A stretch of 44,487 bases of DNA from a virus. The stretch covers positions 1 through 44,487 of IMG/VR virus record IMGVR_UViG_3300040810_000367; one strand, 5' to 3'. The translations under genes were made by a program, and so were the position numbers. Shown here in pieces: positions 21,670 through 39,718 of the stretch. The notes under the pieces were generated by a model. It did no database searches. It saw only the letters and a list, made by a program, of their open reading frames with translations, and was not told the origin of the DNA. The stretch's first letter is position 1. Each line of letters opens with the position of its first letter.

Positions 21670-21698
21670 TTGACAAATCTCCTAAAATATAGTTAAAT
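21670..21698 (+). promoter_or_regulatory. Sigma70 promoter of the tmRNA
   Basis: TTGACA (21670-21675), exact 17-bp spacer, TTAAAT (21693-21698). The -10 region also reads TTAAATA, so the late machinery may use it too. Predicted start is near 21705. Confidence 0.75.
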
Positions 21699-21704
21699 AG
21701 TATT

Positions 21705-22070
21705 GTAACGTTGAAGCCAAGCAAAAGGCGAACAAGACCCGGGTGCGAATCCCGGCGCCTCCACCATAAACACATGAGGATATAATGAATTGGGATTGGC
21801 ATTGGATTAGTTGGTTTAAAGGAACTCCTTTTCAATGGGGCGAATTTAAATTAAATAGTGGAAATCCTTATAAAAGTTATAGATTTGGGCCATTACTTAT
21901 TCGTGTGTTTCTGAGGGGGGCGAACTAGGTATCGATTGGCGTTGTATAGCGAAGTGGAGTTACCGGTAGGCGAGACCGTAAATCAGCAAAAAACAATAAA
22001 TGCTAACGATAATGTAGCATCTGAGGATTTTGCTCTAGCAGCATAATCTCATGGGGTGGGCAACCTACCT
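21705..22070 (+). ncRNA. ssrA: Circularly permuted two-piece tmRNA (acceptor piece, spacer, coding piece)
   Basis: Acceptor piece (about 21705-21766): T-stem CCGGG (21739-21743)/CCCGG (21751-21755) with 7-nt loop, 3' acceptor strand CGCCTCC (21756-21762), A73 and CCA at 21764-21766. Coding piece from 21916: 5' strand GGGGGCG (21916-21922) pairs with CGCCTCC over 7 bp, with a G-U pair at position 3, the alanyl-tRNA synthetase identity element. Next comes GGTATCGA, the usual D-loop region of tmRNA, then structured sequence, then the tag reading frame GCT..TAA at 22002-22046 encoding ANDNVASEDFALAA. The ANDN start and ALAA end match alphaproteobacterial tags. It would rescue stalled ribosomes and tag proteins for ClpXP. 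The spacer (21767-21915) must be removed by host RNases. The T-loop (TGCGAAT) lacks the usual second T, a small oddity. Confidence 0.93.
21785..21928 (+). CDS. 47-codon ORF inside the tmRNA intervening segment
   Basis: The ORF starts 19 nt after the acceptor CCA with GAGGA at 21776-21780 four bases before the ATG, and ends with TAG at 21926-21928 inside the coding piece, so it reads through the 5' acceptor strand. The product is Trp- and aromatic-rich (MNWDWHWISWF...SYRFGPLLIRVF). Length, ribosome site and composition suggest a real small protein, but there is no known family. Translation and tmRNA processing would compete for the same transcript. Chance ORF remains possible. Confidence 0.5.
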   Translation: MNWDWHWISWFKGTPFQWGEFKLNSGNPYKSYRFGPLLIRVFLRGAN

Positions 22071-22071
22071 A

Positions 22072-22097
22072 GCAACAGAAATGGTTGCATTTTTTTT
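22072..22097 (+). terminator. Intrinsic terminator of the tmRNA
   Basis: GCAAC-AGAAATG-GTTGC stem (22072-22088) followed by A and T8. Confidence 0.85.
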
Positions 22098-22103
22098 GCT
22101 AAA

Positions 22104-22111
22104 AATAAATA
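22104..22111 (+). promoter_or_regulatory. Late promoter box AATAAATA
   Basis: Immediately after the tmRNA terminator. GAGGAG at about 22115-22120 is 20 nt from ATG 22141, unusually far. Confidence 0.55.
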
Positions 22112-22140
22112 GTTGAGGAGCAAGAAAGTAGACACAGTCG

Positions 22141-32948: not shown

Positions 32949-33279
32949 ACCTGATTTATATTTTAATGAACAGCCCTGCTTTCTTATAATAGGAGATGAA
33001 GTTTACAGTAAAAACTTCGCAGAGTTCCTTAGTAACTACTCCGAAAACACTACAGTCTACGTAGGCAACAGTTCAAATGAACTAAGTTGGTTAATGACAG
33101 TTTATGCACAATGTACCGCGGTTATACTTGATGCAGGATATAATGACTTTTTGACAGGTCTTTTTATTGACAAACCAAAGACACACTATTACAATAGTAA
33201 GAACAATGTAGATTGTGTAAATATCAATCGCATTGAAGACCCAATGGATTTTATTACAAATTGGGTCGTTAATAATTGA
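32917..33279 (+). CDS. Conserved phage protein of unknown function
   Basis: 120 residues with a TTG start at 32917, the only good start codon before the conserved core; the start is therefore uncertain. The sequence alternates strands and helices (ILVTVVTEPDLYF, CFLIIGDEVYS, TAVILDAGYNDFLTG), like a small Rossmann-type protein, with no catalytic motif seen. I recall similar proteins next to S21 in T4-like marine phages. It ends 7 bp before rpsU. Confidence 0.55.
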   Translation: MPNILVTVVTEPDLYFNEQPCFLIIGDEVYSKNFAEFLSNYSENTTVYVGNSSNELSWLMTVYAQCTAVILDAGYNDFLTGLFIDKPKTHYYNSKNNVDCVNINRIEDPMDFITNWVVNN

Positions 33280-33286
33280 GGAAATT

Positions 33287-33529
33287 ATGGCACAAGATAG
33301 AGAATTTCGTAACGAATTTCGTAAACGCGGATTATGCGTAGAAGTAAAGAATAACAACATCAATCGTGCTTGGCGTAAGCTAAAGCGTCTATTACAAGAT
33401 GAAGGTGTTAACCAAGAACTACGTGAACGCCAGTATTACGAAAAGCCCAGCGCAAAGCGCAAGCGTAAAAAGGCTATGGCTAAGAAGCGTTGGGAAAAGA
33501 AGCGTCAACAGATTGAAGCCAACTGGTAA
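33287..33529 (+). CDS. rpsU: Ribosomal protein bS21
   Basis: 80 residues from ATG 33287 with GAGGAAA upstream. VKNNNINRAWRKLKRLLQDE followed by NQELRERQYYEKPSAKRKRKK is plainly bS21, including the basic C-terminal helix. bS21 sits near the anti-Shine-Dalgarno end of 16S rRNA and affects initiation. Phage-encoded S21 is known in marine phages, particularly of SAR11. Supplying it late could bias ribosomes toward phage mRNAs, which matters here because many phage messages seem to be leaderless. Confidence 0.95.
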   Translation: MAQDREFRNEFRKRGLCVEVKNNNINRAWRKLKRLLQDEGVNQELRERQYYEKPSAKRKRKKAMAKKRWEKKRQQIEANW

Positions 33530-33633: not shown

Positions 33634-34056
33634 ATGAATACACTCACAACTCTTGACATCCCTACACTACATCGTAACTTTATTGGCATCGATCGACTAT
33701 TAGATCGTATGGCATATAATGTGGCACAGGATGGATACCCACCCTACAATATTATCCAGGAATCAGAAGACCGATTCGTTATCGAGCTTGCAGTAGCAGG
33801 CATCGATGAGGATGCTATTGACGTCACTGAACATCAGGGAGTTCTTACTGTAGAAGCAAAGAACAAAACTGAAAGCGATGAAACAAACTACCTACATAAA
33901 GGTATTAGCACACGCCGCTTTAAGCGTACATTTACACTTGCAGAGCATGTTTATGTGCAAAGCGCAGATGTAAAGAATGGTATTCTTAGCATCGTGCTAG
34001 AACGTGACATCCCAGAAGAGATGAAACCACGTTCAATCCCAGTTAAATTTGGGTAA
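33634..34056 (+). CDS. hsp20: Small heat shock protein (Hsp20/alpha-crystallin)
   Basis: 140 residues from ATG 33634; AAGGAG 8 nt upstream decides it over the in-frame 33610 start. The alpha-crystallin domain runs from YNIIQESEDRFVIELAVAG to GILSIVLERDIPEE, with FKRTFTLAEHV as the central strands and a C-terminal I-P-V motif (RSIPVKF) for oligomer assembly, as in IbpA. Hsp20 is a core auxiliary gene of marine T4-like phages, holding partly folded proteins during heavy capsid synthesis. Confidence 0.95.
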   Translation: MNTLTTLDIPTLHRNFIGIDRLLDRMAYNVAQDGYPPYNIIQESEDRFVIELAVAGIDEDAIDVTEHQGVLTVEAKNKTESDETNYLHKGISTRRFKRTFTLAEHVYVQSADVKNGILSIVLERDIPEEMKPRSIPVKFG

Positions 34057-34063: not shown

Positions 34064-34087
34064 GTAGGGGGAGGCAACTCCCCCTAC
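34064..34087 (+). promoter_or_regulatory. Perfect 10-bp hairpin with GCAA tetraloop at the 5' end of clpS mRNA
   Basis: GTAGGGGGAG-GCAA-CTCCCCCTAC. No T-tract follows, so it is not a normal terminator, although it could help end the hsp20 message. The GNRA loop makes it very stable. Confidence 0.7.
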
Positions 34088-34106: not shown

Positions 34107-34409
34107 ATGGAAGATACAAAGACTACACTAGATCTAAAGAGTGTGCTGAATATCGATCCACCAAGGGATTTTAAAGTCATTTATATGAATGACGATGTAA
34201 CAACATTTGACTTTGTAAGTGGCAGTCTCGTAAGAATTTTCGATTATGATGAAGATCCAGCACAACAAAAAGCAGTAGAAATCAACAACAACGGTAGCGG
34301 AGTTGTTGCACTACTACCTTTTGAGATCGCAGAACAAAAAGGTGTAGAAGTTTTATTGGCTGCACGTAATCACGGTTACCCACTTCAAGTTCGTATCGAA
34401 CAAGAATAA
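34107..34409 (+). CDS. ClpS-like protease adaptor
   Basis: 100 residues. DFKVIYMNDDVTTFDFVSGSL matches the ClpS core with N28-D29, which bind the N-terminal amino group of substrates, and FEIAEQKGVEVLLAARNHGYPL matches the C-terminal half. At the place of the invariant His of ClpS (V-H-x-x-G) this protein has E58-I-N60-N-N, so the second ligand of the N-degron pocket is changed. The N-terminal extension that activates ClpAP is short but present. It may divert or block host ClpAP. GGAG is 6 nt before the ATG. Confidence 0.85.
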   Translation: MEDTKTTLDLKSVLNIDPPRDFKVIYMNDDVTTFDFVSGSLVRIFDYDEDPAQQKAVEINNNGSGVVALLPFEIAEQKGVEVLLAARNHGYPLQVRIEQE

Positions 34410-34446: not shown

Positions 34447-35517
34447 ATGAGAATAGAAAACGACTTAAAGTTGGATTATTCTAATGTCCTACTGCGTCCG
34501 AAGCGCAGCACATTAGGCAGCAGAAAATCTGTTGATCTAACTAGAACCTATACATTTAGAAATAGCAAACAACAGTATAAAGGTATTCCTATTATGGCTG
34601 CTAACATGGATGGTGTTGGCACATGGGATATGAATGACGTGCTAGCCAAACAAGGCATGCTTACCGCTATTGTAAAACACTATCCTATTGCAACACAAGT
34701 TGAGCACTTTAATCATCCAGGGAGCGACTTTGCTGTTTACAGCATGGGCATTACAGAAGATGATCTTGCTAAGTTTCGTGCGGTAAACTCGGGTGCTACG
34801 ATCAAATATGTTTGCATTGATGTTGCCAATGGCTACAGTGAACGCTTTATTGATTTTGTAGCAAAATTTAGAGAAGAGTTCCCAGACAAAGTTATCATGG
34901 CAGGTAACGTTGTCACAGGAGACATCACAGAAGAATTAATACTACGCGGTGCAGATATTGTCAAAGTGGGCATTGGTCCTGGCAGTGTTTGTACTACGAG
35001 AATTCAAACAGGTGTTGGCTATCCGCAGTTGAGTGCTGTTATGGAATGTGCAGACGCAGCTCACGGTTTGGGTGGACATATCATTGCTGATGGTGGCTGT
35101 ACATGTCCTGGTGACGTTAGTAAAGCGTTCGCAGGTGGCGCTGATTTTGTAATGCTAGGCGGTATGCTAGCAGGACATGATGAAGGCGGCGGCGAAGTAA
35201 CTACCAAATACTACCGTGAAGGTGAGATCGACGAAGACGGTAATTGGGTACTAGAGGAGCGTAAGTTTGTAGAGTTCTATGGTATGAGTTCAGAAGCTGC
35301 AAACGAAAAGCACTTTGGTGGACTTAAAGAGTATCGCAGTAGTGAAGGTAGAGAAGTTCTAGTACCTTACAAAGGCGAAGTAGCAGATACAGTACAAGAT
35401 CTGCTAGGTGGTATTCGCAGCACCTGCACTTATGTTGGAGCAAAACGTCTCAAGGATATTTCAAAGTGTGCAACATTTATCCGTTGTACAGACACACACA
35501 ATAGGACTTATGAATGA
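34447..35517 (+). CDS. guaC: GMP reductase
   Basis: 356 residues that can be aligned by eye over nearly the full length with E. coli Gua[21 protein letters not shown] at the N-terminus, [26 protein letters not shown], the catalytic loop [18 protein letters not shown] with C182, and [11 protein letters not shown]. No CBS domains, as expected for a reductase rather than IMP dehydrogenase. It converts GMP to IMP with NADPH. A leaderless early transcript is predicted. The purpose may be to rebalance purine pools from host RNA breakdown toward adenine nucleotides in an AT-rich phage. Confidence 0.95.
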
Positions 35518-38347: not shown

Positions 38348-38371
38348 TACCACTAGATTAGTTTAAGAATT

Positions 38372-38402
38372 AAACCGCTAGTTTATCGCTAGCGGTTTTT
38401 TC
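38372..38402 (+). terminator. Intrinsic terminator before the curli cassette
   Basis: AACCGCTAG-TTTATCG-CTAGCGGTT plus T-tract. It isolates the csg-like genes from upstream transcription. Confidence 0.92.
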
Positions 38403-38410
38403 TATAAATA
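38403..38410 (+). promoter_or_regulatory. Late promoter TATAAATA of the curli-like operon
   Basis: Perfect consensus directly after the terminator; GGAGGAG (38415-38421) lies 8 nt before ATG 38430. Confidence 0.75.
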
Positions 38411-38429
38411 TGGGTGGAGGAGTACGGAT

Positions 38430-38876
38430 ATGCGAACTGTTATAGCTACAGTCTTTTTCAGCATGATTCTTTTCACCCAAGCAGCCGCTGGGGAACTTAG
38501 ACACACTTGGCGTTCACCTGCCTTTAGTGGTGTGGGCTATAGCAGTCATGTATTGACTATTGAAAACCTTACACACCAACGCAAGGCTGATATTAAAGCC
38601 AAAGAAGAAGCTAAGGCTAGAGAGTTAGAGCGTGAAGCTGAAAATACAAACATTAACAAGTTTATGAAGAACTTTGAAAGTCGCGTTTACGCTGAATTAA
38701 GTAAACAGTTGAGTGAGCAGTTATTTGGGGAATCAGCTTCAAGCGAAGGCACTATTGAAATACTAGGAAACACTATTGATTATACTAGCGATGGTACAAA
38801 TCTAACAATGACTGTTACCGAAGCCAGTGGTACAACAACCACACTTACTGTACCACTTACTGGATTTGGATTCTAA
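38430..38876 (+). CDS. csgF: CsgF-like curli assembly factor
   Basis: 148 residues. Signal peptide MRTVIATVFFSMILFTQAAA, then the CsgF-type opening ELRHTWRSPAFSGVGYSSHVL, comparable to the FxFRNPxFGGNP region that inserts into the CsgG pore. A charged helix (KADIKAKEEAKARELEREAE) is longer than in E. coli, followed by FESRVYAELSKQLSEQLFG and the C-terminal IEILGNTIDYTSDGTNLTMT beta region, both typical of CsgF. It would couple subunit secretion to nucleation at the cell surface. Stop and next start overlap (TAATG). Confidence 0.88.
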   Translation: MRTVIATVFFSMILFTQAAAGELRHTWRSPAFSGVGYSSHVLTIENLTHQRKADIKAKEEAKARELEREAENTNINKFMKNFESRVYAELSKQLSEQLFGESASSEGTIEILGNTIDYTSDGTNLTMTVTEASGTTTTLTVPLTGFGF

Positions 38877-39718
38877 TGTTTAAACTTGCTGCAACAATAG
38901 TAATGGCACTTAGTCTAACAGGATGTGTGGTTGGCAATGAGATTGCTAAAACAATGCCACCTACACCTACAGTCACTCCATTACAAAAGGGACTTAGAGA
39001 TTTTCCAAAGATCTCTAACAACAAACCTGTGACGGTTGCAGTTTATAACTTTTTAGATAAAACAGGACAGCGTAAACCTGCAGATAATATTGCAAACATC
39101 AGTACCGCTGTAACACAAGGTGCAGAGATATATTTGATCAAAGCATTAGATGACATTGCAGATGGTAACTTCTTTGATGTGGTCGAACGTGGTGGAATGG
39201 AAGCTCTGGTTAAAGAACGACAGATCATTCGTCAAGCAAGACAGAAGTTTCAACCAGATAAAGGACTTGCTCCGCTAAAGTTTGCAGGTGTAATTATTGA
39301 AGGTGGCATTGTAGGCTACGATACAAACAAGTTTACAGGAGGTGCTGGCGCACGTATTATGGGCATAGGGCCTATGACAGAATGGAGGGCCGACATTGTA
39401 ACTATAGGCTTACGAGCAGTTAGCGTACTCACAGGTGAAGTTATTCTAGCAGTAAGTGCAGAGAAAACAATACTCAGCACAAATACTTCTATTAATGTAT
39501 TCAAATTTTATGATTTAGGTACAAAGGTATTAGAGATAGAAGCAGGCACAAGCACAAATGAACCAGTAAACTATGCTGTGAGACAAGCAATAGAGTTTGC
39601 TGTTGTGCAAATGGTTAAAGAAGGCAAGCGCAAGGGATACTGGAACTATGACAGTACAAAGGTTCCAGAAAAATTTATTCAAAAGGAGTCTAATCTAGAT
39701 ATAGAAGACGTCAAATAA
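38876..39718 (+). CDS. csgG: CsgG-like outer-membrane curli secretion channel
   Basis: 280 residues, the family length. A lipobox ends at C17 (LSLTGC). VAVYNFLDKTGQRKPADN, NISTAVTQGAE, FFDVVERGGMEALVKERQIIRQ, VIIEGGIVGYDTNKFTGGAGAR and the later TSINVFKFYDLGT...STNEPVNYAVRQAIE follow CsgG closely. Of the constriction residues, Tyr57 and Asn74 are kept, while the Phe is Ile75. The protein should form the nonameric secretion channel in the host outer membrane. It partners CsgF and the curlin-like substrates encoded next to it. Confidence 0.95.
   Translation: MFKLAATIVMALSLTGCVVGNEIAKTMPPTPTVTPLQKGLRDFPKISNNKPVTVAVYNFLDKTGQRKPADNIANISTAVTQGAEIYLIKALDDIADGNFFDVVERGGMEALVKERQIIRQARQKFQPDKGLAPLKFAGVIIEGGIVGYDTNKFTGGAGARIMGIGPMTEWRADIVTIGLRAVSVLTGEVILAVSAEKTILSTNTSINVFKFYDLGTKVLEIEAGTSTNEPVNYAVRQAIEFAVVQMVKEGKRKGYWNYDSTKVPEKFIQKESNLDIEDVK

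Follow-up and report, generated by a model that had tools for sequence, protein, structure and literature searches.

A phage ClpS homologue with an altered N-degron pocket and a conserved ClpA docking face, encoded beside hsp20

The clpS gene and its product

The window (the whole stretch of viral DNA that we analysed, 44,487 nucleotides with a GC content of about 41%) is IMG/VR record IMGVR_UViG_3300040810_000367, and it carries an ATG-initiated open reading frame of 100 amino acids plus stop at 34107-34409 on the plus strand that encodes a ClpS homologue. ClpS is the reader of the bacterial N-end rule and picks proteins that are fed to the Clp protease. The product matches the Pfam ClpS profile (PF02617) over profile positions 2-79 of 80, with an E-value of 2.2e-20 and a score of 72.6 bits where the cut-off is 23, and its residues 19-99 align without gaps to Caulobacter ClpS (3dnj) and E. 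coli ClpS (1mbu, 3o2b). An AlphaFold2 model, for which an alignment of 49 ClpS sequences was the input, has an overall pLDDT of 90.2 (96-98 from residue 21 on) and superimposes on Caulobacter ClpS (3dnj/3gq0) in VIA-align with Z 17.2 and an rmsd of 0.7 Å over 81-82 residues. The same fold is found in the cellular ClpS2 of Agrobacterium tumefaciens (4yjm, Z 15.3). The first-pass annotation of this DNA, made from the sequence alone, had called the protein a ClpS homologue with an altered pocket and had proposed structure modelling as a check. Profile, gap-free alignment and modelled fold all agree with it, and the reading frame is a genuine, complete member of the ClpS family with the ClpS fold.

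Residues 1-19 (34107-34163, plus strand) form an N-terminal extension that is predicted to be disordered, with pLDDT values of 51-71 over residues 1-20. Bacterial ClpS likewise has a disordered N-terminal extension, and in E. coli this segment goes into the ClpA pore (PMC9663308).

The hsp20-clpS pair and its spacer

Directly upstream of clpS on the plus strand lies hsp20, encoding a small heat shock protein (33634-34056; PF00011, E 2.3e-17), and a ribosomal protein bS21 homologue is found two genes upstream of clpS (33233-33529, plus strand). Both neighbours recur: of 130 phage ClpS loci, 123 have hsp20 directly upstream of clpS in the same orientation, with a median gap of 72 nt, and 96 have a bS21 homologue near clpS. 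The pairing, or a close linkage, extends to unrelated jumbo phages, where the two genes are adjacent in Pseudomonas phage Cassandra and have one thymidine kinase gene between them in Agrobacterium Atu_ph07 and Sinorhizobium Phosso. The next gene downstream in the window encodes an IMPDH/GMP reductase family protein (34447-35517, plus strand; PF00478, E 1.6e-69); such a gene is present at 18/130 loci and is given here as context only. The cyanophage genomes and Melnitz have hsp20, and a divergent ClpS beside it, considered on the strength of a weak phrog_485 match, was rejected because no reading frame scored above threshold.

The spacer between hsp20 and clpS contains a stem-loop, GTAGGGGGAG-GCAA-CTCCCCCTAC, at 34064-34087 on the plus strand (z -4.4). 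Stem-loops with z below -2 occur in 94 of 98 distinct hsp20-clpS spacers, and control stretches are without such a signal. Given that there are 77 different left arms among them, it is the pairing that is conserved and not the sequence. Most of these stem-loops have no T-tract. At loci where hsp20 and clpS are apart the stem-loop stays beside hsp20, so we regard it as a 3' element of hsp20 and rule it out as a control element of clpS, although as an hsp20 3' structure it may reduce clpS output. No earlier report of the hsp20-clpS pairing with a stem-loop was found in the papers searched, which cover part of the literature.

The window's second strong hairpin (38348-38429, plus strand) is followed by a T-run and resembles an intrinsic terminator. 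The gene at 38430 precedes, and in relatives accompanies, a gene whose product (38876-39718, plus strand) is 46% identical to an HTVC008M protein annotated as the curli transport component CsgG.

Residues of the pocket and of the docking face

In Caulobacter ClpS, the alpha-amino group of the substrate is contacted by Asn47, Asp49 and His79, which correspond to N34, D36 and H66 in E. coli, where Met40 is the gatekeeper of the pocket (PMC12493166). We use E. coli numbering for alignment positions below. In the window protein the Asn-Asp-Asp motif of the alpha-amino site is kept as N28-D29-D30 (34188-34196, plus strand; E. coli N34-D35-D36), and the pocket His is replaced by N60 (34284-34286, plus strand), so that two of the three alpha-amino contacts, N28 and D30, are present. 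Two more pocket residues differ from E. coli: F34 (34206-34208, plus strand) stands at the gatekeeper position and A56 (34272-34274, plus strand) at the specificity-pocket position Met62. The canonical N-degron adaptor features that are missing are thus the pocket His and the Met gatekeeper.

The retention of N28-D29, the loss of the His and the role of that His in touching the alpha-amino group had all been noticed on first reading, and all three hold. Two details need correction: the aspartate that makes the contact is D30 rather than D29, and D30 is kept too, while the His, described as invariant, is nearly so (79 of 80 cellular sequences). The first-pass annotation had also allowed that an alignment might put a His in the right place, and the gap-free alignments put Asn60 there. 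The missing His is explained neither by misalignment, since gaps are absent here and, in our first alignment, from 8/8 close relatives at this column, nor by sequencing error, since independent contigs from other samples have N or S at the site. N60 lies within E58-I59-N60, and we discarded E58 as an informative residue because its position is variable throughout ClpS.

ClpS contacts the ClpA N-domain through E79, E82 and K84 in E. coli (PMC12493166), which the window protein has as E73, E76 and K78 (34323-34340, plus strand). Across 153 phage ClpS sequences, E79 and E82 are invariant and K84 is present in 150.

Distribution of the altered pocket

Phage ClpS sequences were gathered from IMG/VR in five scans, and merging identical cores left the 153 distinct sequences. 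The pocket-His site is H in 139 of these, N in seven, S in six and a gap in one; of the 80 closest cellular sequences, 79 have H and one has D. Outside this pattern we noted a Nautiliaceae MAG with Asp at the site and the Atu_ph07 protein, with Glu at the site plus Asp in place of Asn34.

Other pocket positions differ along with the His. The gatekeeper is F, Y or V in 13/13 non-His phage forms and M in 114 of the 139 His forms, the remaining 25 also being without Met. Position 62 is A or S in 12/13 non-His forms versus 6/139 His forms, where T is the rule (133/139), and position 36 is D or E in every non-His form and N in 68 of the His forms. When the change in the window's clade was weighed against conservation elsewhere over 80 columns, position 66 ranked first, 62 fifth and 40 seventh.

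In a ClpS tree built without the pocket-His column, the window falls in a clade (SH-aLRT 97) in which 13 of 14 rows have N or S and one has H, and a single further N form is placed outside it. The N and S forms are therefore almost entirely confined to a single marine clade. The His form within it is 75% identical to the Ser forms and has the same gene context. Over the whole tree at least four changes between H and non-H are needed. Since the clade is one lineage, the coupled pocket changes represent few events and not thirteen, and the correlation between them is partly shared ancestry. Taken together, these comparisons show that the clade's pocket has been remodelled while its docking face was held constant. 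A clade-wide Asn/Ser pocket had no earlier report in the papers we searched, a partial coverage of the literature.

The change of a normally conserved residue could also be a sign that clpS is losing function by decay or drift, and it is the one point in favour of that explanation. Three close pairs within the clade have dN/dS of 0.026/0.52, 0.039/1.17 and 0.018/0.32, far below 1, so these genes are under purifying selection; the reading frames and docking face are intact and gene order is conserved. Decay is already contradicted by these observations, and we consider it extremely improbable.

Clp machinery and tmRNA in the window and its relatives

Neither clpA nor clpP was found in the window, which is a 44-kb fragment. 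Longer records contain them: among 12 ClpS-bearing records of more than 140 kb, clpP is present in 11 and a Clp_N protein in nine, and all five records of more than 280 kb that were chosen for ClpA have both clpP and clpS. A DnaJ gene was present in every ClpA-bearing record checked for it and adjoins clpA wherever the flanks were read. Seven phage Clp_N proteins, examined over their whole length, resemble ClpA: they have 751-763 amino acids, a pair of Walker A motifs and the IGF loop with which ClpA-type unfoldases dock ClpP. In their N-domains the partner residues of ClpS are conserved, with E28, T81 and R86 in 7/7 and E or Q at E23.

The N/S clade is represented by a single long record, G004 (203 kb), which has a Ser-form ClpS, a DnaJ gene and, adjoining it, a full-length clpA on the minus strand (contig L347, 1258-3510) whose product has the ClpP-docking type of IGF loop; ClpP was not detected in this record. 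Full-length phage ClpA adjoining a DnaJ gene is also found on six further contigs of relatives (L348-L353). Because it would rest on this one record, we make no claim that loss of the His is tied to a missing phage ClpP. The ClpA partner of the window protein is inferred from relatives, chiefly G004. Host ClpA had been the only target considered at first, and this has to be widened: genes for ClpA, in many cases accompanied by clpP, are present in related phages, and the adaptor may therefore work with a phage enzyme.

In several relatives (L354, L355, L356, L357) a canonical ClpP and a divergent paralogue are encoded near each other; by eye, the divergent one retains Ser, His and Asp where they would be expected. 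A search for a virion gene shared by the window's lineage and the marine ClpA contigs matched only two records (G009 and G011) and so did not establish the link, and no phage Leu/Phe-tRNA-protein transferase, a possible supplier of N-degrons, was found in 16 records.

A phage tmRNA had been proposed for the window, and ARAGORN and Rfam both find it. It is a permuted, alphaproteobacterial-type tmRNA at 21671-22137 on the plus strand, with the tag ANDNVASEDFALAA and scores of 115 bits (RF04321) and 91.5 bits (RF01849). Across the clade and its nearest kin, 11 of 15 records have a tmRNA of this type.

Comparison with known ClpS proteins

The window protein is about 31-35% identical to the ClpS of E. 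coli and Caulobacter, with which it shares the fold, N34/D35/D36 and the docking residues. It differs from them in His66 to Asn, Met40 to Phe and Met62 to Ala, and in being phage-encoded beside hsp20. Natural loss of the pocket His is already known from Leptospira interrogans, whose ClpS1 has Asp62 at this site and Tyr36 as the gatekeeper (PMC12493166). That protein is cellular and of another lineage, and it has lost the docking Lys84 (Val80), whereas the window protein keeps the Lys. Leptospira ClpS1 binds ClpA with a Kd of 0.44 uM, inhibits the ClpA ATPase and suppresses degradation of ssrA substrates (PMC12493166).

ClpS has been reported earlier in jumbo phages (PMC7824862), and a phage Clp suite is also known: seven Clp proteins were reported for Atu_ph07, including a ClpA whose gene neighbours that of DnaJ, and ClpP is among its genes (PMC6102473). 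The jumbo-phage proteins (PA5oct group, Atu_ph07, Phosso) are, like ours, encoded next to or near hsp20 (PMC7824862, PMC6102473), and where tblastn found them they are about 32-34% identical to the window protein. The Pseudomonas PA5oct-group and Phosso proteins keep the His, in contrast to the Glu of Atu_ph07 and the Asn of the window.

A retuned adaptor and its alternatives

Recognition of other degrons and occupation of ClpA had both been proposed on first reading, and the sequence alone is compatible with either. Our preferred reading, which we hold to be moderately probable from sequence comparison, is that the window protein functions as a ClpA adaptor whose N-terminal recognition pocket has been retuned. 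Support comes from the 0.7 Å superposition, the docking residues conserved on both phage ClpS and phage ClpA, the full length of phage ClpA, purifying selection, the coupled pocket changes and the ClpA binding of Leptospira ClpS1, by analogy with which docking and ClpA redirection should survive the loss of the His (PMC12493166). The core would dock on the N-domain of ClpA, phage-encoded in relatives and otherwise host-encoded, and docking would divert ClpA from ssrA-tagged and self-degradation substrates, while the disordered tail would assist the hand-over of bound proteins to the ClpA pore. In the marine clade, the pocket that reads the first residue would have been retuned by His66 to Asn or Ser, Met40 to Phe or Tyr, and Ala or Ser at 62, with Asn34 and the acidic residue at 36 staying in place. 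Such a protein would probably still hold free N-termini but prefer other first residues, or fewer of them. From gene content, delivery would be to phage ClpA, and clpS would be expressed downstream of hsp20, whose product may retain unfolded proteins for this Clp machine. Weighing against this reading are the small number of evolutionary events behind the coupled pocket changes, the absence of clpA and clpP from the window and the lack of the transferase in the 16 records.

The loss of the His could merely weaken binding, since joint alanine changes of D35, D36 and H66 strongly lower substrate binding by E. coli ClpS (PMC9810338); in the window protein the equivalents of Asn34 and Asp36 remain. 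If the pocket were too weak for N-degrons, ClpS would mainly sit on ClpA and block self-degradation and degradation of ssrA substrates, which would protect phage proteins or route tmRNA-tagged products to ClpXP. The intact docking face with one alpha-amino contact lost, the tmRNA in the window and most clade records, and the inhibition of ClpA by a Leptospira ClpS1 with a changed His (PMC12493166) are consistent with this. We nevertheless think it unlikely that this is the main role, given that every non-His form retains two of the three contacts and an acidic residue at 36 and that the hydrophobic pocket is rebuilt and not degenerate, which a pure occupant of ClpA would not need. Retuned recognition is favoured over a dead pocket for the same reason, with N28, D30 and the docking residues still in place and a hydrophobic pocket that has been rebuilt and not eroded.

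Alternatively, Asn and Ser may simply be tolerated, with the usual Phe, Leu, Trp and Tyr N-degrons delivered much as by host ClpS. Both residues keep the ability to donate or accept hydrogen bonds, and the His form inside the clade (contigs L005/L006), so close to the Ser forms, fits such tolerance. However, the constraint on the His is strong and general in both cells and phages, and the gatekeeper and position 62 have changed as well; we therefore rank an unchanged adaptor as rather unlikely, behind the occupant of ClpA and the retuned adaptor, in that order. A more speculative extension, which we offer as doubtful, is a private phage degradation code, in which the rebuilt pocket would read N-termini ignored by host ClpS and work with a phage ClpA and with ClpP of either the host or the phage, with Hsp20, DnaJ and tmRNA making up a phage-borne proteostasis separate from the host N-end rule.

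Significance

The pocket of ClpS is nearly invariant in cells, and here a virus may choose different proteins for destruction. The natural, selected series of His, Asn and Ser phage forms with an unchanged docking face is a ready experiment on the role of the pocket His and also on whether the specificity for N-degrons is open to rewriting. A group of phages related to T4-like marine phages pairs clpS with hsp20 and clpA with dnaJ, in many cases together with clpP and tmRNA, so the phage may itself control how proteins turn over in the infected cell.
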